Of a stretch of 64,000 nt of DNA, positions 633 to 58,133 are shown one piece after another. Location: the NCBI GenBank assembly GCA_025765595.1, contig JAIVFH010000025.1, positions 1-64,000 of the forward strand. The letters are read 5' to 3'. The DNA comes from Obelidium mucronatum. Taxonomy: Eukaryota; Chytridiomycota; Chytridiomycetes; Chytridiales; Chytriomycetaceae. Position 1 is the first letter of the stretch, and every line of letters starts with the position of its first letter. A program made the translations under genes and the position numbers. The notes beneath the pieces were generated by a model. That model did no database searches, was not told the DNA's origin, and saw only the letters and a list, made by a program, of their open reading frames with translations.

Positions 633-1035
633 CTAGGCTCAGTGTCAGCCTTGCTCTCGGAACTCTCAAAAAGAAAAAATAAAAAAAATTTCCATTTTCG
701 AGCCCCAGCGAGAAGGCTGATCGACAATCTTCAAAACCCGCCAACTCCATTTTTTGTAGCGGAAGAACCAGCGGATGGATCTTCCTCAAATTCGGCACAG
801 GTGTAGTTCAACTTATTTTATTAGTTTTGGCGGCCTTTTGGCCACGTGTTTCTGACAGTTTCCGTTTGAATAGTGGGGCCGCGTTTCAGACGTCTCCAGT
901 GGACTCAAAACACGCTATATGCTCCTATGTCTTGTTTTTTTTTCAGTATATCCAATATATCAACATATTCTATTACCGTTCGACACGTTGATTTGACCTG
1001 GAAATCATTTTTTGTTCTGTCCGGAAACACATCAA
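633..1035 (+). repeat. Left terminal inverted repeat, 403 bp
   Basis: This is the exact reverse complement of 5239-5641. It holds an A-rich stretch near the outer end, a small palindrome around GGCCTTTTGGCC (832-843), an ATG at 927 and a polypyrimidine-CAG (T9 then CAG, about 936-946) that looks like a 3' splice site. The repeat ends just before the frames of the two genes diverge, so it probably supplies the same promoter and 5' leader to both. Confidence 0.9.
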
Positions 1036-3560
1036 CTCAACTGAAATCAACAGTTGCATTTATGATACGCGACAGCCGCGGGATGTTTCGGGGCAAGGCC
1101 GACCCACTGACTCAAGATCCAAGCGACGTCGGTACTGAGTCCGAAACTTCACCTGAACGTAGCCACAGCCGCAAAAAGGCATCAGTTGGACTGGAAACTC
1201 CTCTTTCCAATCAACGCCCAACAAGAAACACATCAAATCCATTTTCGACCCATCAAATGGGTTGCCCAATCCCGTCCATGAGTTTGGAAGAGAGATTGAA
1301 CGATTCTCGGGATGCCAATTTAGGATCATCCTTCACAACTCATTTACGTGCAACTGGACAATCAGAGCATTCTGCAAAATTCCGTGCAGCAATGGCAGCG
1401 GTAAAATCGGCGGCTGCACAAAAAGCAAGCTTCAAATTTCCGGAAATTGAGGCTCGAGTGGCCATGTTGTCCATTGATGACCAGCTGCAACTGTTGCAGA
1501 ATCTCTTCAACGCTTTGCCTCTTCCAAAGCAACGCGATTTTCTTTTGAATAATGCATCTGCTCTCTCGAAAATCGAAATCAAAGAATGCCTGAAGGTTGA
1601 TATTGCTGCTCCAACCGTTGTTAACCGCTTGAATGTCAGTGTGCTTCTCGAATCTTGGGAGGCCAGTGCGCCCTTTATCTCGTCTCTCATCGGAATGCTT
1701 GTTGGACATGAAAAACCAAAGCTTATTCTCATCCTTGGAATCATTCTTTTTTCTGCATCTCAGAAGTACAATCTTCTGCAGTCGGAGATTGGTTTGATCT
1801 TGTACTCTAATGGCGCTTCGCAGAATCTCGTAAAACTAATGAATAGTATGGGTGTATCAGTTGGAAATGATACAATTCTTGACCGGCTTGTTGACATGAA
1901 ACAGCAAGCTCTCGATCTGATTCCAAAAACATTCCGTTCAAATAGTATTCTCTTGATCCACGACAATGTGGAGCGATACAACAAGACATACCAAAAGACT
2001 CAAGGAAACCAAAACCAGCTTGTGTCCCAAACGCTGCGTGGATTCATTCTTATCACACATGATCCAGCAATGCTACAACCCGCTGTGCCAATTAAGCCGC
2101 CATCACCATCCAATATTGTTGCCGACGCTTGCGAGTTGGCCTGGTATCATTCTCAGACTTTTAATGAATTGTACAATCTCATCATCAAAGAATGCGCGGA
2201 GTTCAAAGACCTATCTTCAAGGCACAACCATCCTAACCGCCCCCATAGACCAACTGGTATCCTGCCTTTGCCCATTATGGACGAACAAGAAATGACTACC
2301 AATGGATCCATTCGGATTGGGGAGCAATACACTAAAGACTTCAATATTCCGCACAACAAATGTATAAAAGTCCCTTTATTTGGAGATTTGGGGACAGTCA
2401 CATCTGTTCGCTCTGCAATCAATGAGCGCAAACATGAGTGGGGTAGCTCTGATGTTGAGAAGCTGCAACACCTGATGCCCATCTATGGAGATTTTCATCT
2501 TGGAATGGCCGTTGATAAAGCCCAAGTCTCCGCCATGGGCTGGGAGCCATCCTTTCCAGGAACTATTGCTTGGTTTGCTCGAATTCAAAACAAGAATATC
2601 AATGCCAAGAAAGCGACATTCTACGAGATGCAAGATGTGCTAAACGGCTCCCTTAGCGCCTATGTTGTTGCACTTGCGGACTCTATTACAGTGGATTACG
2701 CCAATGACCTGTCGGAACTGCAGTCAGGTAGTCAAGAAAAGCTGGACTACATTGTGAATACTCTCCTGCTTCATGTTAACAGAGCAGTCTATCAATTGAA
2801 GCCGATTGTAAACAAAGGAAAGCGTGCTACGGAGTATTCTCCTTTGGAAACCCACCCTTTCCGCAACTACATGCTGCAATTTATACGCTTGCGACTTCAA
2901 TCATTGGTCTTCTACGATTGCATTCGCTATGGTGACGGAGAAGGCGTGAATATTATGCATAAGCTGTTCTTGCCATTGCTCAAGAGACACTCCAAAAAAT
3001 ACGCACAGGGAACTGTGCGTCAGTTGTGGGATTTATCAATGATGACTCCTCGGGAACGAGGAATATGCGTACAAAACGCGTTTTTAAACTCAAAAGGACT
3101 TGTGAACTCCTTTTTTCCCAATGACTTGGGAATGGAGCATGAAGTCCTTGCCATGAAGTCAGTTCAATCCAAAGCAGGAAGTAACCGCAACTGGAATCAT
3201 ACCCAAACAATTTCTATGACTGCATCTCATGTCTGTAGCTTGACTAGCTCTCTTTTTGACCACTTGGACATTCCAAGAAGACGAGCATATCATCACGACG
3301 TGGATACAAAAAAAGACAAGGAGACCATGATGTTTGATGTCAAATCTCAGATGAATCGAGTACAAGGCTACTTCAAAGTGGGTGAATATGCCTTTAAACC
3401 TGTGCTGGAAGTGGGTTACAAGGAGTTAGTCAAGGATGGATATATTGCTCGGCAACTGAAGAACTTTTTTTGTGGATCTGGGGATGAGGATGATATTGAG
3501 GAGTTAGATGAACGGGTGTTTGACGAGGATGGTGTTGAAATTTTTGATTTAACGAAATAA
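927..3560 (+). CDS. DUF6589-like large protein of the TIR element
   Basis: An intronless frame of about 877 residues if the ATG inside the TIR (927) is used, or 832 residues from the first ATG after the TIR (1062). The second is favoured if the T9-CAG in the TIR is a leader-intron acceptor. The N-terminal 100 residues are Ser/Thr-rich and basic. The middle has a patch reading HDNVERYNK. Further on comes LMPIYGDFHLGM, similar to the GDFH block of fungal DUF6589 proteins; the assignment is from memory and tentative. The C-terminus is acidic (repeated D/E after residue ~860). It converges on the RecQ gene. It may be the recombinase or an accessory factor of the element, but no catalytic triad was established. 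Confidence 0.6.
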   Translation: MSCFFFSISNISTYSITVRHVDLTWKSFFVLSGNTSTQLKSTVAFMIRDSRGMFRGKADPLTQDPSDVGTESETSPERSHSRKKASVGLETPLSNQRPTRNTSNPFSTHQMGCPIPSMSLEERLNDSRDANLGSSFTTHLRATGQSEHSAKFRAAMAAVKSAAAQKASFKFPEIEARVAMLSIDDQLQLLQNLFNALPLPKQRDFLLNNASALSKIEIKECLKVDIAAPTVVNRLNVSVLLESWEASAPFISSLIGMLVGHEKPKLILILGIILFSASQKYNLLQSEIGLILYSNGASQNLVKLMNSMGVSVGNDTILDRLVDMKQQALDLIPKTFRSNSILLIHDNVERYNKTYQKTQGNQNQLVSQTLRGFILITHDPAMLQPAVPIKPPSPSNIVADACELAWYHSQTFNELYNLIIKECAEFKDLSSRHNHPNRPHRPTGILPLPIMDEQEMTTNGSIRIGEQYTKDFNIPHNKCIKVPLFGDLGTVTSVRSAINERKHEWGSSDVEKLQHLMPIYGDFHLGMAVDKAQVSAMGWEPSFPGTIAWFARIQNKNINAKKATFYEMQDVLNGSLSAYVVALADSITVDYANDLSELQSGSQEKLDYIVNTLLLHVNRAVYQLKPIVNKGKRATEYSPLETHPFRNYMLQFIRLRLQSLVFYDCIRYGDGEGVNIMHKLFLPLLKRHSKKYAQGTVRQLWDLSMMTPRERGICVQNAFLNSKGLVNSFFPNDLGMEHEVLAMKSVQSKAGSNRNWNHTQTISMTASHVCSLTSSLFDHLDIPRRRAYHHDVDTKKDKETMMFDVKSQMNRVQGYFKVGEYAFKPVLEVGYKELVKDGYIARQLKNFFCGSGDEDDIEELDERVFDEDGVEIFDLTK

Positions 3561-3583
3561 TAATTGCGTTACTTTTTATTTGG

Positions 3584-5347
3584 TCAATTCGGCATTTTCT
3601 TTAACTCCTTCAAATATGCAACAACAAGTGTTTTTGCTTCAATTTTCCATTTGTCTTCGAAACTATCAATCCAATCAACAAATGAGTCGAGAACCACACC
3701 CTTCAGATCTCTGCAAATATCATCGATGACTTCCTGTGGGAATCTGCAAAGTCCCAACTCCCATGGTACTCCAATCAAACAGCTTTCCCGCCATTCTGAC
3801 AGCTCCGAAAACAGTTTGATAGATTCTTCAACTGTCAATCCACATTGCGAGCGAATGTGCCTTTTTTGTTTGAGCAATGGAGTGTTGGAAACATATGGAA
3901 TCAAGCCAGACTGTGCTATAGTTGGTTTACGAGACTCACAAGCATCACAGCACCGGTCATTTGGTACCGGATCAAGCCCCTTAAAGTACCCCAAAAGAAC
4001 CTTCCTTCGGCAAACTGGATTTGAAGTTGAAGGTGTTGATGCAAAGAGAGAGTACACCTCTCTGTTGGTGGCCTTACTCTCCTTCAACGCCACAGAATCG
4101 CTTTTCTTGTCTGATAAATCCTGGAGGGAGTGGAAGAAGAGACAACGACTGGGCAATCCATCCCTTCCAGCCCTCCCAAATTCCTGGGCAGCATTGCAAA
4201 ATGATACTGGAGTCTTGTAATGAACAACAGTTCTAATTGAAGGATGGTCCAAGCCCTGGCCCAGCATTTGAGTGGTGCAAATAACCTTCAATTGATTAGG
4301 GTTTTCTCGAATCAGGCCTAGTACTGCGTTTTTGTGGGATTCCGAAGACAAGGCAGTTAAGTGAGTGAGCACGGGGGGGTAATTGGAGATGCCAGCTGAA
4401 AGGTACGTGTAAATCTTGTTCAGTGTGGTCTTTGAATCGCAGAAGAGGACCAGAACAAATACACTCGGATCAAAAGTTTTTGTTTCGAGAGCTATTTTGA
4501 TGAATCCAAGATCCTTTTGCATCTCCTTCCGCTCCTGGACATCGTAAAACAAGTTTGGCCGATCCACACACCCAATAATTTCGACAAATCCTGGTCTCAA
4601 TCTCAGTCGATTGCACATCTTGTTGTACATTGACTTTGGAACCGTTGCTGAAGCTGCAATGAAAGGAATATCCTTGAAATGAACACGAATGTTCTCCAGA
4701 TTCAAATAGTCTTGTCTCCAAACATCTCCAGCGTTGGTCATTTCGTGCCATTCGTCTACTGCAATCGCGAACGCAAATTTTTGAATGACTTTGAGTATCT
4801 TCATGTCCTTTCCTCCAAGAATACTTGTTAAAAATTCCGGAGTCATCCACACAACATCAACATTTCCACTCTCAAGCAATTCCAGTGTTGAAGAATTCCC
4901 AATCTTGTTCATATCCAATGATCCAAAGGCTGCCGGTCGAAGGGGTATGTCTGATTTCTCCAAATTTGCCATTTGGTCAATCATGATTGCCAAGAGTGGA
5001 GATATAATGAACAAAACCGATTTTCGATCACCAGAATCCACCATTCTTTGCATGTGAGCCAGCAGAGACAGGTAAAAAGTGTACGTCTTGCCTCCGCCGG
5101 TCCTTTGAATCAATACGCAGTCTTTCCCATTCAACACAGCCTTGACGCAAGCAATTTGATAGTCACGAGGAGCACTCTCGTAGTACTTGGCGGTTAGCAG
5201 GATGCAGACTTCCAAGATGGGATCATGTTCTAGTGACATTGATGTGTTTCCGGACAGAACAAAAAATGATTTCCAGGTCAAATCAACGTGTCGAACGGTA
5301 ATAGAATATGTTGATATATTGGATATACTGAAAAAAAAACAAGACAT
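3584..5347 (-). CDS. RecQ-type DNA helicase of the TIR element
   Basis: An intronless frame. It gives 587 residues from the ATG inside the TIR (5347) or 551 from the ATG at 5239, whose A is the last base of the TIR. Superfamily 2 motifs are in order: Walker A TGGGKT, motif Ia SPLLAIMIDQ, motif II DEWH followed by WRQDY, motif III ASAT, motif V GQGLDHPSIRTVVHY and motif VI QEFGRAGRDG. A Cys-rich segment (CRRKVLLGYF ... CCDAC) then fits the RecQ zinc-binding subdomain. No HRDC domain is visible. The usual RecQ DEAH box is DEWH here. The role is likely ATP-driven 3'-5' unwinding for element mobility or replication. It resembles telomere-linked RecQ helicases of fungi. Confidence 0.85.
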   Translation of the reverse strand: MSCFFFSISNISTYSITVRHVDLTWKSFFVLSGNTSMSLEHDPILEVCILLTAKYYESAPRDYQIACVKAVLNGKDCVLIQRTGGGKTYTFYLSLLAHMQRMVDSGDRKSVLFIISPLLAIMIDQMANLEKSDIPLRPAAFGSLDMNKIGNSSTLELLESGNVDVVWMTPEFLTSILGGKDMKILKVIQKFAFAIAVDEWHEMTNAGDVWRQDYLNLENIRVHFKDIPFIAASATVPKSMYNKMCNRLRLRPGFVEIIGCVDRPNLFYDVQERKEMQKDLGFIKIALETKTFDPSVFVLVLFCDSKTTLNKIYTYLSAGISNYPPVLTHLTALSSESHKNAVLGLIRENPNQLKVICTTQMLGQGLDHPSIRTVVHYKTPVSFCNAAQEFGRAGRDGLPSRCLFFHSLQDLSDKKSDSVALKESKATNREVYSLFASTPSTSNPVCRRKVLLGYFKGLDPVPNDRCCDACESRKPTIAQSGLIPYVSNTPLLKQKRHIRSQCGLTVEESIKLFSELSEWRESCLIGVPWELGLCRFPQEVIDDICRDLKGVVLDSFVDWIDSFEDKWKIEAKTLVVAYLKELKKMPN

Positions 5348-5641
5348 AGGAGCATATAGCGTGTTTTGAGTCCACTGGAGACGTCTGAAACGCGGCCCCA
5401 CTATTCAAACGGAAACTGTCAGAAACACGTGGCCAAAAGGCCGCCAAAACTAATAAAATAAGTTGAACTACACCTGTGCCGAATTTGAGGAAGATCCATC
5501 CGCTGGTTCTTCCGCTACAAAAAATGGAGTTGGCGGGTTTTGAAGATTGTCGATCAGCCTTCTCGCTGGGGCTCGAAAATGGAAATTTTTTTTATTTTTT
5601 CTTTTTGAGAGTTCCGAGAGCAAGGCTGACACTGAGCCTAG
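5239..5641 (-). repeat. Right terminal inverted repeat, 403 bp
   Basis: This is the exact reverse complement of 633-1035. Its outer end lies only 12 bp from the TAA stop of WDR19 (5654-5656). An AATAAA on the minus strand (5646-5651) remains between that stop and the element, so WDR19 may keep a usable polyadenylation signal. Confidence 0.9.
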
Positions 5642-5653
5642 CTTTTTTATTCT

Positions 5654-8600
5654 TTACACACGCGATGCCGATGGCGCGGCTACTGCTGCTTGCTTTTCTG
5701 AACCTACTGCCCCAAAAGGCACGTCCATATCAGTTGGCGTTGTTGCTTTGCCTGGCCCAGCAGCTGTCCCTGTAGTATACTCTTTCGTTGCAGGATCAGG
5801 TTGATCTTTCGGTTGAGGGGTTGTGTCAACTCTCTCTTTCACTCCTCTTAAGAGCTCTTCCGCGTTTGGAGCAAGCTTGAGGTCCTCAACTTTCAGTTCA
5901 GCATTACACATTGAACACGCACTGGTTTGCGATACTACAAGTTTAAATCCTGACAAAAGAGAAGGAAATTCACAGCTTGGACACAAGCTCCACTCTTCCA
6001 GAGTCATGTGTTTTCCCTTTCGTAGGGTGTTAGTGTTAGCTTTTATCAAGAACCGGGCAAAAAATACCAACCGTAGAAATGCAATATGGTAGGTGATTCT
6101 TGCATTCAATACAATCAAGAGAAGTTTCAGGAACCATATATTTGCAGTATGGACAGGGCGAGAGCTTCTCGGATACAGTATTTTCTTCTGAGTCGGGGCG
6201 ACTTAAATGATGAAGTAGTTGCGAGTTGAGTTATTAATACAAAGGACCGAGCTTTTCTTACCGAACAATCTGCTCAATTTTTCGTTTGTATTTGGCGTCA
6301 ACCAAATTGCGATATTCTGGTCTCATGAGCATTGCTGCGTATTCATAGGCTTCTTTCTTCAAGTCAGACCGATGACATTCAATGACGGTAGATGTCAAGA
6401 TTGGAACAACATGAGTCGGAAATTTGGAAATACTGTTTGACACTCGGATAAGCATTCGAGCACCCAACTCGTGTTGATTGATTCGAACAAGCGTCTATTA
6501 CAATTCAATTATTTATTGAGTTATTTGTTAAGATGTTGTTGTTACCTTGACCAAAATATAGCTGTGAAGCAGCATCAACATGCGCTCAAGGTCAGCGGGG
6601 ATCTTTGCTTTACATTTACGCAGCTGCTTAAAGTTATCCAAAAGCAAATCATGGGCAGTACGGTAGTTTCCTGCAATTCAAGATTCCATAAAAAACTCAT
6701 AAACTGACATTGGGAATTTATACCTAGCATCTGTTCCTCTCTTGCAATGATGATGGCTGTTCGAGCAGCATCTCTGAATGCTCCAAGTGACATATATAGC
6801 TTAAAAATATACTTTGCCTCCTGTGGCATAGCCTGATTGTGAGTTGATTACACTCTCAAGAGACTACGTACCTTTGGAATTCCATCATTTTCACCCATAA
6901 GATAATCGATTAATTCGTGAGTGAGTCCGTCACTTTTAGCCATGCCCACAGTTTCAATTGCAAGTTCCACAGGTTTGCCATCCAGCACTGGACACCTGAT
7001 GAACATCCGCAAGGCGCGAATATAGTTCTTAGCTTTCAATAAATAAATTCCAGCATTCAGCAGTTGATTCTTCGACTCAAAGTACGTGGCAATGTTGAAC
7101 ACTATTAATCTAGTTAGATTTATGTTGGAAAACATTTATCGACACATACACATTTCGGTAGTTGCTTCAGATTGAACAATTTCACCAAAGTGTTCCATAA
7201 CATCGTGATGCTATAGAATTAATGTTAGATGGCATGCAGTTGATGTGGGGAAATTACTTGAGCCAATTCAAATGCTTCGTCAACCATTCCAGCCATAAGC
7301 AGAAACTCTACAACGCTTTTATAGTCCCGCATTGATTGGAAAAATTTGCTGACTATCCTCGCCGAATCCCGAGATCTGGTCTCCCTCACAATTTTGACTG
7401 CCCCATCAATATTCTGCAAATGTTCGACGTACAACCGAACCAGATTCTCATGATCTTTTCCTCGTTCGTAGGCTGACGCCGCTTCTTCGTATTGCTTTGC
7501 CGCTTCTTTTGCTTTTGCGTATTGTAAGAAAATTTTGGGACTTGACACCTGTTCCAACAAGGGACCCACTTTGTTCCAAAGTTTGCCTATTACAAAAAAA
7601 CACCAGTTAAATAATTCAAATATGAGAAATAAAATGACGTTATACCTTTGGTGTAAACCTCTGCCGCCTTCTCCCAATTCTTGGCCCTTTCATAGAGTCC
7701 ACCACTCTCCAAATACATTTTAATACCCTCCAAAATGGCCGCGCACTCAGTTAAAAGTTTGGCGTCATCCACTCCCGTCAGCATTTTCATTCCGCGGGAA
7801 GTATCGCCCATTCTAAACGTCATTCGCGTTACTCCAGCGGAGCAAGCCACTTGGTGGTCTTCTCTCACTGACTCAACCACTTTCATTCTTGTGGATGACT
7901 CTAAAGCTTTCTCGTACATTGTTAGAGCCTCCATGAACTTGCTCTCCGTTTCCAACTTCGAGGCAAACTCTCTAGAAATCACTGAAACATCACTTGGAGA
8001 AAGCTTTGATGCCAAACTCAAGGCATGATCCCAATGCATTAGGTCTCGTCTCATAATCAAGGCTTGAATAGGTTCTGAGCTCGAAAGGAACAGCTCTTGG
8101 GCCCGATCAAAGTCTCCGAATATCACTGAAACATGGCCAGCAAGGACATTCCGTTCTTCACATGTGGTTTCAAGAATATCAGAAAGAGTTATAACCATTC
8201 CAGGATCATGAAGAATCTGACAGTAAACCCGTTTGGCGGTTGTGAGATCCATAACATGGAGGGCAGCTTCGGCCAGCATCACCCAGGCTTTTCTTGATGA
8301 AACCACACCAATAAGAGCCCACAAGTCTGTATGTGTCTTTAGATTAATCATAATTCCTCTTTCATCTTAGCAGAGGGCAGATGTTCTGTACCTGTCATTC
8401 GCCCCAATGTATATAGCGTCTGAAGGGTTTTGCCAATCGCCTTTTCATTCTTTTCGTCAAATATCTTCACATTGATTGGTTCATGGGTGGTTAATCGAAT
8501 GTGCGACAGTTTTCCACCAGGAGTCTATGCATTTTTTTTTTTTTTTTTTGATAAATCAAGATATTAAATGGCTGTGTCTACCTGACAAATAACGATCCCA

Positions 8601-22135: not shown

Positions 22136-25100
22136 ATGACATCCCCCGCCTCAAACAAAAAAACAGACGTGACCATCGCGTTTATCCAAAACTACTGCTA
22201 TTTCGAAAACGTTCAAGTCAATGGCTCCTATGTTACTAACTTTACACTATCATCCGAGCTCTCCTCAGCTGCTCTTGATGACCCTTATTTGAGTTTTATC
22301 TATGCACCGGATTTTGCCATGGCAGCAGCAATCGATCTGATCAACAACGACACGAGCATTCTAAATGACGTCAACATCAGAGTTAAACGTTTTTCAGACT
22401 GTGGGGGGTGGTATCCGGACGTCAAAAACTATTTTGGAATTTCTGGAGGGTTTGCATCAAGTGTTATGGTTGAAGATATTGCAACAAACCACAAGGACGT
22501 AATTGCAGTCATAGGAAATCAATACAGCACGACAGCAAAGTATTGAATGACTACTTGTGCCGTTGATACAGACATTAACGTGTATTCTTGATAGGGGTTC
22601 AGCAGAAGCTCTGTCTTTATACCAGGTGCAACTTGAAGCATTTTACAACTGATGAAAACTTGGCGATTAATTCTTTTGAAATTAGATTCCAAACTGTGGC
22701 GGAGGGACCTACAGCCCAACCTTAAGTTTCAAGGCAAACTATCCGTATTATTTTCGAACAGTTGCCAGTTTGGGAATAGGAGACCACATTTACCAACTTC
22801 TCAAAACATGGAACGTGAAGCGCATAGCCATCATATACGAAAAAGATGATAATATGAGCCTCCAGCTAGCGCGTGATTTCCTGGAATCAATGAGTAGGAA
22901 TGATGTCGAAATCACAGCGAATCTGCCAACAGCAACCCATGTCTCAAACGAAACAATTAAATATCTCAAAACTTCTCTTTTGCGTGCTGATGCAAGGTTT
23001 TTAGTGTGTGGGTATGGATCTGGAGACGTTGACACATTTTTTCGTGTTTTTCCAGATACATTCTGATCATGGGGCTCCAAGGGTACACAACCGAAGTTTA
23101 TATTAACCTTGCCAAGCAGGGGATGGTGGGTAGCCAATATGTATGGCTTGGTTTCCAGTATCCAGATGCATCCATCATTGACGCCGGAGACTTTGGTTAT
23201 TTGAGTGGATATATCATACCATTTACCAAAACATACAGCTTAAATTCGAGCTGGTCACTTGAGCTTTATGAGCGCATGCAAGCCATTGCTGGTTTTGATG
23301 AGGAAGCCGCAACGTAAGGGGCCCTTTCAACTTTACATGTACTAAAGCTTTTGTAAATATGCAGTTTGCAACACCTTACTGCGGATTTAATGACAGGTGA
23401 ATATGTAGATTGCGTAATGTTAATGATGAAAGGTCTGGACAAGGTATCCATTCTGAAGTCACCACGGAACAACTCGATTTAAAATCAACAACTCCAGCTG
23501 TTAAAAAGTAATGAGAACTTTACCCCTCAAATGCTGGCATCTCGGCAGCTTCAGCGTTATATGAATTTCACTTTGTTTCAAAATCTAAGATATTTCGGAT
23601 ACAAGGGCAATCCAGTAGAATTGACCCAGCATGGAGACTTGGCAGCGTAATTAAATACCTCTTTTTTGAAAAATATTTTGAACTTTTGGTTTGCAGGCCA
23701 TACATCTTCAGCAGCTATACAGGCAATGACATTGACAATAACTTCTTTGGGGAGACGAATGCAGAAGCTTCCAATTTCACATACTATAACTCAAGCCCCT
23801 CAATTTTTTATGGAGGTAATTTTATTTGAACTGATCGAGTCATTTTCCTAAAACTCTTTCAGGTGCATCGCGTCCTCCTCTGGACGGTCCCCCAATTCTT
23901 GAAATACCTGAATTTGTTCCCAATATTTCAAATGGAACTGGAGGAGGTATTTTATTTTTCAGCGTCTCTGGGATCCTGCTTTCGTCTGCCAATGTCTGGT
24001 TCACTCAAAAGAATCGACGAAAGAAAACCATTCTTCGGACATCTTACGCGTTCCTTATGCTCATACATATATCATCTCTTATGTTTTCAGTATCGTTGGT
24101 TTGGTTTATCGGTCGACCTACACGGCTTGGATGTCATTTGTCAATGTGGTGCAAGATACTTGGATTCGGAATTCTCATGCCAACCTTAGTTGCCAAAAGT
24201 CACATGGATTACACTCTTATTTTAAGTCGGAAGAGACTTGGTCGCAATAATCGGTTGATTTATATCCAAGCTATCGCTATTGCGGCGGCTATTGTTGGAG
24301 AATTGATTCTCCTCACACTTTGGTCAACACAAGCCAAACCTACAAAAGTCCTGGTATTCAATACACTCAGCTACACAACTTCATACTGCTCGGATCCAGG
24401 ATATTCAAATCCCTATGTAATTGCACTGTTGGTGTACAATTTGGGCCTCGCCCTTATCGCCATCTGGTCGGCTTATTTTTCTCGAGATGCCGAACCTCTA
24501 AACAACGAGTCCACATTCCCGTCTATAATAACAGCTGCGTTTTCAATCGCCGCAGTTCTCATTCTCCCAGTCCTTAACGTCTCATCACCAAGTCCCACCT
24601 CATTCCTCATCCACACTGCAACAATATGGGTTCTTGTGATTACAACGCAGGGCTCAGTCATGATACCAAAATGGGCTTCAATTCACGCCGACAACAGGAA
24701 ACGGAATGCAGAGCTCAAGTCTTTAATGGCTCTAAACAAAAGCAACCAGAGAAACTCTTCTGTAGTAGCCGCAGCTGTTGCTCCCAAGATGCGGAACAGT
24801 GTAACAGGAATCCCCGCAATCGCAGTGACTGAAGCGTCATCGTTCCTCCCTCAACAGAAGAGAAATTCAGAGTCGTTTGAGAGTCCCAGGAATTGGCGAG
24901 GCATCTTGAGCACAGCTGTAGGAGGGAACGTGGTCGGTCGAATAAGTTCGACAAGGAATAGTAACTCTGCGACGGCTAAAAAAGTGGCAGTGGATAAACG
25001 ACCAATCAATGTACAATACCTGGTTCGGGACCCCCGCCCTTCTTTTGAATTGCATCTTCCCGATTGGAAACTAAATATCTTTTTTTTTGTAAGGGAGTAA

Positions 25101-53610: not shown

Positions 53611-54479
53611 TCATCCCCTTCTTTTCTTGCAATTGCGAACACTTGCAGCAATCGCACCAGGACCAGGCTTATCGGGATATTTGGCATGGAATTCAGACAC
53701 CAACTCAGCAGAACCAGAAACATTGGCAGCAGGCTCCCAAGAGCGGTCAGAGTTAGAATAACCCATCCAATGTACCAAATATTGAAGTTTGTTGTAGAAA
53801 ACGCGAGAATCCAAGATTTCTTGAACTTCCCATTCTTCAGTGTTGTCTACGATAACTGGCGGAGGTGGAGGTTGGGTAAACGCGGCAACAATATTCTTAG
53901 TCTTGGGATGCAGCAAAGACGCGTGGAATACTGGATGAATACGCATGGTTGAAGGTAAGGCAAGCTCAAAGGCGACTGGGTTGATGACGCACTTGACTTT
54001 AAAAGGACCAAGTTTCTTATCATCAATCTTTTGAGAAGGACGATTAGTCTTGATATTGCGACGATCCAAGAAAACCAAGTCTCCGGGTTTAATTTCTGGA
54101 ACCGGTAACCGAGATTTGTTGGCTTGTGTAGTGTAACCTTCCTGGGCAAACTTTAAGTTCGCACGAAGGTCTTCAAGAATAGTTTTCATTGACGCGAGGC
54201 GATCTTCAGCGTCAGGAACAGAGGATTCACGAATAACAGAGGGGTCAAAAATTGGATTGGGACCAGAGTTTGCGAAGAACGGTGTATGACCAGTAGTGGT
54301 TACCAGAGAATCTTTGTAGGCAAATTCGCAAAGAGGTAACTTGGATACCCAATCGTCTTGCTGGTAGTTACAGTAAACGCGTAGGTATTGTTCAATGACT
54401 TGATTGAGGACTTCAGTAGATCCATCAGTTTGAGGGTGAAAAGCGGTAGAAATGTTAAGTTTAACGTTGATTCCTAACA
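53611..54479 (-). pseudogene. Ty3/gypsy integrase C-terminus with chromodomain (5'-truncated)
   Basis: The frame covers the end of a chromovirus-type integrase: HPQTDGSTEVLNQVIEQYL, then FAYKDSLVTTTGHTPFF, the GPY-type part (KLGPFKVKCVINPVAFEL), and a chromodomain (EWEVQEILDSRVFYNKLQYL, then WMGYSNSDRSWEP). It stops with TGA at 53611-53613 after a purine tract (AAAAGAAGGGGA). The LTR-like TGTTAGGAATCA begins at the next base. Gag, protease, reverse transcriptase, RNase H and the integrase core are missing. The upstream break lies exactly at a second copy of TGTTAGGAATCA (54468-54479). Confidence 0.85.
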
Positions 54480-55582
54480 GTTAGGGTTAGAAGAACAAGT
54501 CCGTCAAGATGTTATCCAACACCGCCGTTTCATCATTTGGTGTGTATCTCAGCTTTTAAACTTCTGCTTTAAAAAAAAATGGCAGGTTCAATTTTTTTTT
54601 GGGGCATTTCCCCAGCGTACAATAGTGTAGAATTGCGTACGATTGCGTTACAGCAAGCCCGGGCCACGTGCCTGTGCACTTTTGAGTAGGCTTGATTGTA
54701 AGTCGAACTTGCTTCATTTCCAACTGCTCGAAAACCATGAAGTTGCGCAGCACTACTGCTGTGCAACCTCAATTGACAACTTAAACTAAACTCGACCATG
54801 TATGTTTCTTTTCAGACGTTTCAAACTGGAGAATGTGCATGCGAGGTTGCTACTGGTGGGAGGCCAGGCTATGGTGTCACATTGAGAACTCAAGGAATGG
54901 TCAATTATGTTCAGTTGATTCCCCACCCTCTATTTGAAACCACCGTGTCAGTCTGCCAAAAAATAGCCAAGAGAATGTGAAATACTGGTATATTTGCATC
55001 AGATTACTGTCTTCTTGAAACTCAGCTTGCAATCTAAAATGTATTTGCACAGCTACTCTTCAGGACAAAGAGAACACTCCTGAAGTTGCCACTGGTACTA
55101 CAATTATTCCAAGCATTCCTCCCATTCATCAAGATCAACAATTCGTCACTGCTTGCAAAGCTTTTTTGAATAACCTTTAATTTTACCAACGGAGAAGTTA
55201 GGTCTTTTGCAGGACTTTCATTCAACACAGGAAGCAGAAAAATTGTTTTTGAGGAGTTTTGTTGTAAGGCTCTTCTAGAATGACCAGAAAAATTTAAGTG
55301 ACTTTTCTATTATTATTGCGAGAAAATCTAAGGCTGCCTTCTTGTTTCCAAAGCTGATACAGCAACGCCAATGTCATTTTGTTTTCTCTTGAAGGTTCCA
55401 GAATTTGTGCATTGGCTGGTGAGGTCTGACAGAACAAGGTTGTGGCCACTTCAAGATTTAACAGCTGGAAAATTGATTAAGTAAAAAAAAATGTAATGAA
55501 ATCAAGGAGTCAAAAGCTCTTATTAAGACTGTTGAACCTTCATGTATTGTGTGGGAGTGATAAATGGAACCACGTACTATAG
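54480..55582. other. Non-coding stretch with short telomere-like motif
   Basis: About 1.1 kb without a credible gene. It opens with TTAGGGTTAG (54481-54490) next to the broken retroelement. The remainder is A/T-rich single-copy-looking sequence. A plus-strand frame at 54798-54980 has no recognisable feature. Confidence 0.45.
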
Positions 55583-56029: not shown

Positions 56030-58133
56030 CTAACATTTGCTAAGTTGCTCATTTCTCATGTCCACCATGCTGAACAAAAAAAAGTCTGCCTGAAGAGGGT
56101 CCAAATATCGCAAAATGTGTCCCATTTTTTCAAACCATCCAGCACACTGTTCTGCTGCTGATGTGTTGAATAAAGGCTTGTTTCCTTGGTATAGCCTAGC
56201 AAAAGACCTAGCGTCACAATTCTCCATGCAGAATCTGTCTCGACGACTATGGTTTCTGAAGTGAAATCGGTCAACAACCCAGATGATTTTTTGGTATAGC
56301 ATCCTAAGCACAGAAGTTAGATTCTATCACAGCAAATACATCCTTACTTATGGAGCAGCTTGTTTTGCTGAGCGCCGTTTTTCAAAGTCCTGACAAAAAC
56401 ACATGCTTTGTCATAAAACATGAATGTAGGATACTCATCCAGCCTCATGATTGTTTGACAAAGAAATCCTGTGATAAACTTGTTGGACTCAAACGAGTAC
56501 ATCTTCCCAATGTCCATAATGTGCCCACAGCTCCACACAACCAGGAACACCCCTGGCAGGAATCTGTCAAATGGGCTGTAACAGAACCCAAACTCCTCAT
56601 AATTCCTTTCATCATCCTTCACATGCCCCACTGACACTCGTGTCTTTCCTCCATACTTCTTTGCAGTTTTCTCACTTGTTGTTGATGGGTCTGAGAAGAA
56701 TTTTCCCACCGCCTCCATATGTTCTACTTCCTTGCACGACAGCGGCTGGTAATCAAAAGAGTTCTCACGTTCTCGTTTTTGATTCGCACATCCTGAAATG
56801 ATGCATTTCCCCTTCAATCCTGCATGATTGATACAGAATTTTGTATTGATCCCAATGATGTCCAAATTGCATCCAATCACTCTGCACAGCAAGTGCCCCA
56901 TCACTTTTCCATCCATCACTGCCGCACTATACTCCTGGCCTTTGCTATCAACAACATGACATTCTCCACATGAATGTTTCCATTTTACTGCAAAGTGCGC
57001 ATTCATCCACTCCACATATTCCTTCATTGCCAACCGCAAATCTTCTACATTATCAGACACTTGATTGCTTGAGTATTCTCCAAGATGTAGGGAATACGGA
57101 AACAGCCGTCCCCCCAAGATGGTTGGAAGCAGGAATAATCAAAATCTTCATGAGCTGCTTGAAGCGCCTCTGAAACTGCTGGATCCTGAATGTACTCTTG
57201 CAATAGGAGCATCTGGTACAAGTAATACGCCCGCTTGAAAATAGATGATGATGCAGCTGAAGGAATCCCTGAATACTGCTCAGTATCTGATGAAACAGAA
57301 GGAAATGCTGAATGGTATGCATTCTGCAGAGTATACATTTTACATCTAAGGAATAGTCTGTCAGTAAATGACAAGCAGCAAACACTACTAATAGCACTCC
57401 TAATAGCGATCCTAATAGCAAACCTAATGGCGCTCCTAATTGTGCTCCGAATCGCGCTCCGATTCGCTTCCGATTCGCTTCCGATTCGGAACGCGATTAG
57501 GAGCGCGATTAGGATCGCTATTAGGATCGCTATTAGGATCGGCATTAGGTTTGCTATTAGGACCAACACTTACAGCATTACAGACGGCACATTCTTCAGC
57601 CATAAATTTGCAAATGCAACAGTCATGTAGTATTTAGAATTGATTCCAATGACTTTTTGCTTTCTGATTGTATTCATTGGGTAATGTTCTATGGTGCTGT
57701 TTCCTTCGGTAATCTCTGACACTGAATCAACGTCATACAACTGAATACTGCAGCTCAAATTCACACAGCTGGATTTGTACAGAAGACCCGATTTAGCTGA
57801 ATCTGCATCCAAGATTGTGACTTCTTGCCATCTCCCAATCTTTAGATGGCTCTGACACTTGATGCAGTATGTAAACGGAGCTGACAGGATAATAGGTACA
57901 TTTGGGGTAATTGTTTCGTGAATTCTTGAATCAAAGACAGCCTCTGCAGTTTGTTTGGCTGCCAGGATGGGAACGCCAAAAGAAGTAGCAACAAGCTGAA
58001 TGAAATCCCGCAAACGGAGTGTCTTGTTGTAAGTCTTTTCAAAACTGCCGTAGATTGAAAACTCAGCTTGGAAGGCTGGGAACTGTTCTGCCAGCTGAGC
58101 TCCCATCTTGACATGTGAGGCAGGGATTTTCAT
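56030..58133 (-). CDS. KDZ-like transposase with CxC5/CxC6 cysteine clusters
   Basis: Exon 1 has the Cys pairs YCIKCQSHLK and CVNLSCSIQLYD, in the pattern of the CxC5 cluster. Later exons give VVDSKGQEYSAAVMDGK, the CxC6-like CIISGCANQK, and the C-terminal block VVDRFHFRNHSRRDRFCMEN, then FNTSAAEQCAGWFEKMGHIL and MVDMRNEQL. This order is that of Kyakuja-Dileera-Zisupton (KDZ) transposases of fungi. A run of six G (57110-57115) marks a frame change: one more G would join PSW to GGRLFPYSL without a break, so this copy may be dead. One intron (about 57360-57575) is filled with the element's own iterons. An upstream in-frame ATG at 58196 overlaps the divergent gene. Confidence 0.72.
57370..57560 (-). 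repeat. Intronic iteron cluster in transposase gene
   Basis: A series of CCTAATAGC/GCTATTAGG and CGATTCGC/GCGAATCG units matches the motifs at the element ends. It lies wholly inside the intron between the CxC5 exon and the next one. Confidence 0.8.

Follow-up and report, generated by a model that had tools for sequence, protein, structure and literature searches.

We report that the window, a 64,000-nt stretch covering positions 1 to 64,000 of contig JAIVFH010000025.1 from the chytrid Obelidium mucronatum, carries a 5,007-bp mobile element at 634–5640 that is probably an autonomous class II transposon of the AcademH type, with a DUF6589 protein (ORF1) as its putative transposase and a RecQ-family helicase (ORF2) as a putative accessory factor. 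A preliminary description of this stretch had reported identical 403-bp inverted repeats enclosing two convergent genes, one DUF6589-like and one RecQ-like, and both observations held. The arms at 633–1035 and 5239–5641 (403 nt each) are 100% complementary; their outermost C/G pair is a chance match that is absent from some copies, and since it is not common to all of them the element was refined to 634–5640 with terminal inverted repeats (TIRs) of 402 bp, the left at 634–1035 (+) and the right at 5239–5640 (−). These exact edges are the ones bounded by a 9-bp target-site duplication (TSD) in 11 of 13 full-length copies. ORF1 (1062–3560, +, 832 aa) and ORF2 (3584–5239, −, 551 aa) are each a single open reading frame, with 896 and 606 codons between flanking stops and 23 bp separating the stops of the two genes, and their domains were confirmed by profile matches. 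The likely start of ORF1 is 27 bp inward of the inner edge of the left arm, and the first base of the likely ATG of ORF2, 5239, is also the innermost base of the right arm. The left arm probably also serves as promoter and 5' untranslated region of the DUF6589 gene, and the right arm as those of the helicase gene. A common 36-residue start of both proteins within the TIR (ATG at 927 and its mirror) would be possible in frame, but for the helicase the alignment across families favours the inner start.

To count copies, we searched the element's own genome assembly (48.3 Mb, 694 contigs), and all counts from it are lower bounds. The TIR query gave 34 matches, 26 of which belong to 13 full-length copies, two arms each, every copy on a contig of its own; the remaining eight fall in partial copies on C182, C128, C33, C137, and C412, which are ~85–99% identical where aligned and are left out of the copy counts. 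Among the 12 other full-length copies, nine have the same 5,007-bp sequence as the window copy, two differ from it by a single base, and L020 is 99.58% identical with a length of 5,005 bp. Both ORF1 and ORF2 are full length in 13/13 copies. Between the window copy and L020, the nonsynonymous and synonymous rates were dN 0.0015 and dS 0.0073 for ORF1 (dN/dS ~0.21, only 7 changes) and dN 0.0016 and dS 0.0165 for ORF2 (dN/dS ~0.09, only 8 changes), so that the changes lean to silent ones in both frames, in small numbers. A contig end is less than 1 kb away for three of the 13 copies (C25, C277, and C606). At C182:36000–42000 (L021), two outward-facing partial copies have mirror-image flanks, and this palindrome is possibly a fold-back of the assembly. 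Very short elements with the same tips were also present (L048, C376:13316–13459, 144 bp; L053 and L054, ~79 bp), and are likely non-autonomous relatives.

Analysis of the flanks revealed an exact 9-bp repeat, without fixed sequence, at 11 of the 13 copies. When the edges were moved outward by 1 to 7 bp, duplications were found at 0/13 copies at every shift, and left and right 9-mers taken from different copies never matched (0/156). A search of the assembly with the joined flanks of the 11 duplicated loci returned an uninterrupted counterpart for nine of them (L009, L011, L012, L013, L014, L016, L017, L019, and L020), in 11 contig stretches of 91–99% identity. In 10 of these stretches, representing eight of the nine loci, the matches of the two flanks to the empty site share exactly 9 bp. 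Be they alleles or duplicated segments, the empty stretches display the site in its unoccupied state, and they are compatible with both cut-and-paste and copy-paste transposition. The preliminary description had proposed a recent mobile element inside long TIRs, and had named a genome search and a comparison of empty with filled sites as ways to check it. The 13 full-length copies remove the objection that a single copy would have raised, and together with the TSDs and the empty counterparts found within the same assembly (9/11 duplicated loci) they support that proposal.

To examine how far the gene pair extends, we searched the genome with DUF6589 (at least 22 matches) and with ORF2 (at least 35), this element's copies included. 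These matches revealed five further families (L027, L028, L029/L030, L031, and L032) in which inverted arms of ~81–467 bp enclose the two genes in the same convergent layout, L030 being near-identical to L029 (one difference in 5,241 bp). The DUF6589 frame is split into two ORFs in L028, L031, and L032, and the separate pieces were aligned for these. Left out of the family comparison were L033, which holds fragments of both genes without matching inverted arms, and L034 and L035, which are helicase-like matches only. Duplications of 9 bp were present in L027, L029, L030, and L031, with 10 bp also possible in the first three; no duplication was seen in L028, whose left tip is doubled, or in L032, whose left tip was not found. 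Pairwise distances of ORF1 and ORF2 across the six families are correlated (r 0.91; of 720 label permutations, two give a value at least as high, one of them being the true order), suggesting that the DUF6589 protein and the helicase have long travelled together as a pair, diverging roughly in step. In L032 (C5:185500–195400), the most diverged family, a PHD-like finger follows DUF6589 (15.7 bits, curated cut-off 24).

ORF1 matches DUF6589 (PF20231) with an E value of 2e-36, and this was the sole match in a Pfam scan at E up to 1. The family alignment revealed D301-N302 in the DUF6589 proteins of 6/6 families, and D442, H479, and E692 are likewise present in all six, suggesting D301 (1962–1964), D442 (2385–2387), and E692 (3135–3137), all on the + strand, as candidate catalytic residues. 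In DDE enzymes, the first and second catalytic acids usually come after a hydrophobic stretch; D301 and D442 are each preceded by a mostly hydrophobic stretch and would fit this arrangement. Searches of viral contigs and prokaryote genome contigs gave pattern matches and no relative; these collections, like the protein and structure databases searched, may hold few eukaryotes, so missing homologues outside this genome say little. In the open-licence literature, which excludes subscription papers and Repbase, DUF6589 goes unnamed and no link between it and a transposase was found. A fair case can be made that ORF1 is the transposase, probably of the DDE type, which suggests a function for a Pfam family of unknown function.

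ORF2 contains DEAD and Helicase_C domains. Its motifs I (TGGGKT), II (DEWH), and VI (QEFGRAGR) are kept, and it is therefore probably an active helicase. The best NCBIfam match was recQ_fam (E 2.8e-52), yet the score of 178.1 bits is below the NCBI cut-off of 219.8, and the match to the RecQ zinc-binding domain is weak (17 bits, cut-off 25). Among solved structures, the best match was the Bloom syndrome helicase (E 1.8e-29).

The ends of the element share features with those of its relatives. The left tip TAGGCTCAGTGTCAGCC (634–650, +) is matched by the same 17 bp at the right tip (5624–5640, −), and is identical in two diverged families, L028 and L029/L030, whose proteins are merely 31–37% identical to those of the window family. 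In L028 the left tip is doubled, with two consecutive copies of TAGGCTCAGTGTCAGCC at L028:1883–1916. Inside the tips are subterminal palindromes, the left at 645–720 with arms 645–652 (TCAGCCTT) and 713–720 (AAGGCTGA), and the right at 5554–5629 with arms 5554–5561 and 5622–5629. A perfect inverted pair of 8–12 bp, its first arm starting at nt 11–16, was present at one end at least in 6/6 families, including CAGACTGCTCTT/AAGAGCAGTCTG in L031 and CCAGCCTCTCC/GGAGAGGCTGG in L027, there at the right end only; the pair in L032 is at the right end, where the tip was chosen visually and is not backed by a target duplication. Base-shuffled ends matched the observed pair length in 0 to 13 of 2,000 trials (six ends). 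In an earlier scan for the best inverted pair, shuffles reached the observed value in 3/200 cases for the window element, 1/200 for L028, and 0/200 for both L029 and L031, with no signal at the left end of L027 (28/200) or in another stretch of L032 (40/200). When the first 100 nt were folded as single-stranded DNA, L029 (z −3.18) and L031 (−5.05) were clearly better than shuffles, the window element (−1.64), L028 (−1.25), and the left end of L027 (−0.89) weakly better, and the L032 stretch worse (+0.94). The inverted motif pair is supported by these data; a folded hairpin is not established. The letters of the motif vary by family while its symmetry is constant, which fits binding sites that may have changed together with the protein.

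Based on these features, we propose a mechanism for transposition. ORF1 would bind the tip and the subterminal inverted motifs and pair the two ends, and the D301/D442/E692 triad would then cut the ends and join them to target positions staggered by 9 bp, presumably by cut-and-paste rather than copy-paste; gap repair of the stagger would leave the 9-bp duplication. ORF2, as a co-transmitted accessory factor, would unwind or remodel the ends, or else the strand-transfer and repair intermediate. A stronger role, in which the transposase needs the RecQ helicase as an obligate partner and the two act together on the subterminal palindromes in helicase-dependent DDE transposition, appears unlikely to us; in such a scheme the palindromes might be unwound or extruded, or a strand-displacing copy-type intermediate driven. 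With its recent movement, well-defined ends, empty sites, and genes of full length, this element makes the reason why such transposons carry a RecQ helicase open to direct test.

Several other genes in the window were noted. The right neighbour of the element, at 5654–8366 (−), resembles the terminal part of an intraflagellar transport gene of the WDR19/IFT144 type, so the host probably has a flagellum; the presence in the window of IFT144/WDR19-like and KDZ-associated CxC6 genes suggests a flagellated fungus. Positions 23835–25097 (+) encode a seven-transmembrane domain of the class C G protein-coupled receptor type (7tm_3, E 1.8e-21). A Tf2-1-like SH3 domain and chromodomain at 53614–54480 (−) are probably the tail of a Ty3-type retrotransposon, and a KDZ transposase-associated CxC6 cysteine cluster at 56347–57138 (−) probably represents a third transposon type in the window.

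Several observations weigh against the assignment as an AcademH-type element with ORF1 as transposase. The window copy and L010 showed no TSD when their flanking 9-mers were compared, and the joined-flank search of the assembly gave no empty counterpart for L015 and L018, two of the 11 duplicated loci. At L020 the two flanks share an apparent 13 bases, in an imperfectly matching AT-rich stretch, and the empty sites of L009 and L019 carry a 9-mer one base off that of the filled locus. In ORF1, residues E408, D625, D688, and E783 are as invariant as the proposed triad, which is thus one reading of the alignment, and the D442–E692 spacing of 250 positions would need a large insertion. The ORF1 profile had 0 matches to solved structures at E up to 1, and in the protein database neither the ORF1 query nor the six-family alignment query yielded a passing match among 8,000 scored candidates each. 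Maximum-likelihood trees of the two proteins differ in branching, with mostly low support (45–58 for DUF6589; 54, 91, and 54 for the helicase). Finally, the AcademH-type placement is drawn from published descriptions of the helicase and the duplication length in that lineage.

The junctions of the two copies that lack a TSD were traced further. The left flanking 9-mer of the window copy, AATTCACCC (625–633), differs from the right one, GCTTTTTTA (5641–5649), for which no partner junction was found. On the left, 631 of 632 flanking bases match C21:325866–326501 at 96%, and beyond the insertion point C21 (~370 bases) has nothing matching the first 6,400 bases of the window; over the 1,000 bases searched, the right flank is single-copy. 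The reciprocal junctions were not found in the assembly: one query gave 0 matches, and the other a single hit with one mismatch, corresponding to the end of copy L012. The two flanks thus seem not to belong together, and since the window copy begins only 633 bp from the end of contig C25, the likely cause is a misjoin via identical copies or else an exchange involving two of them. The closest counterparts of the L010 flanks are on different contigs (left C406, 93%; right C119, 93%). Weaker counterparts of its right flank on C406 and C55 (71–72%) lie ~2.3 kb past those of the left flank, so a local deletion may have occurred. The doubt is confined to the junctions of these two copies and does not extend to the element as such. 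There is next to no chance that the whole arose by misassembly, or is a plain inverted duplication containing two host genes: the contig-end position of the window copy, its lack of a TSD, and its unpaired flanks would be expected of one, but 13 loci, 11 exact duplications, and nine empty counterparts would not. An assembly hairpin producing the TIRs, a concern raised at the outset, was rejected because the 13 loci lie on 13 contigs with different flanks and have empty sites.

Membership of another known superfamily as a RecQ-carrying element, be it KolobokH or a related Kolobok, MULE, or KDZ/Zisupton, is very improbable. MULE-type elements have long TIRs and ~9-bp duplications, which counts in favour of such an origin, but the Pfam scan of ORF1 at E up to 1 yielded DUF6589 alone and no MULE transposase domain, and this candidate was rejected. 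Kolobok elements duplicate TTAA, whereas the 9-bp duplications here have no fixed sequence. Helitrons, which combine an HUH nuclease with a helicase, have neither TIRs nor TSDs; with its 402-bp TIRs, its 9-bp duplications, and no HUH domain among the Pfam matches of either ORF, the element was not assigned to them. KDZ/Zisupton was rejected since the duplication stated for Zisupton in the pertinent section of PMC12730594 is 8 bp, against 9 bp here. As described in the section of PMC9587614 on these elements, KolobokH carries RecQ and is reported from fungi only, and the rhodophyte Kolobok-1_CCri has RecQ on the complementary strand; both resemble the present element as DNA transposons with a RecQ helicase. 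In KolobokH, however, RecQ is downstream of the transposase domain, and KolobokH was rejected on the separate convergent genes of the present element and its duplications without fixed sequence. The occurrence of RecQ in both KolobokH and a rhodophyte Kolobok implies that a helicase was captured more than once, and a DUF6589 transposase might likewise have gained RecQ independently, making the element a separate superfamily whose likeness to AcademH is convergent. Since the AcademH placement is drawn from descriptions of helicase and duplication, this alternative deserves some weight; we nevertheless consider it improbable, as the cited passages on fungal Academ and AcademH agree with the present element in both the type of helicase and the length of the duplication.

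The AcademH assignment is therefore preferred. AcademH is the helicase-carrying lineage of Academ (Kojima 2020, as cited in PMC10045372 and PMC10799480), and the passages of these papers that concern it give duplications of 9 or 10 bp (PMC10045372) and a low-copy occurrence in the fungal phyla Basidiomycota, Ascomycota, and Mucoromycota (PMC10799480). The present element has a superfamily II (RecQ-like) helicase beside the transposase candidate, with recQ_fam below its cut-off and the Bloom syndrome helicase as best matches, and a 9-bp duplication at 11/13 copies, with a 9-bp overlap at 8/9 empty loci. AcademX, the sister lineage in the same superfamily, differs in that a nuclease replaces the helicase and the duplications are 3 or 4 bp (PMC10045372). 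According to PMC6416283, 1,568 of 1,938 fungal Academ copies had recognisable protein domains, among which DEAD helicase and recQ_fam are named, the latter being also the top NCBIfam hit for ORF2. The element illustrates that a RecQ-like gene listed in a fungal gene catalogue may belong to a transposon, as noted there for Academ. The same open-licence literature, without subscription papers and Repbase, never names chytrid, Academ, and transposable together. The preliminary description had called the element a candidate undescribed one and its helicase part of a possible new transposition or replication machinery; as a kind, the helicase-carrying Academ is already in print, and present evidence does not call for new machinery. 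The best reading is a recently active AcademH-like group that is new as a group and of a kind already described, set apart from the AcademH elements of those accounts, low-copy and listed from three phyla, by its 13 near-identical copies in a host that looks flagellated.

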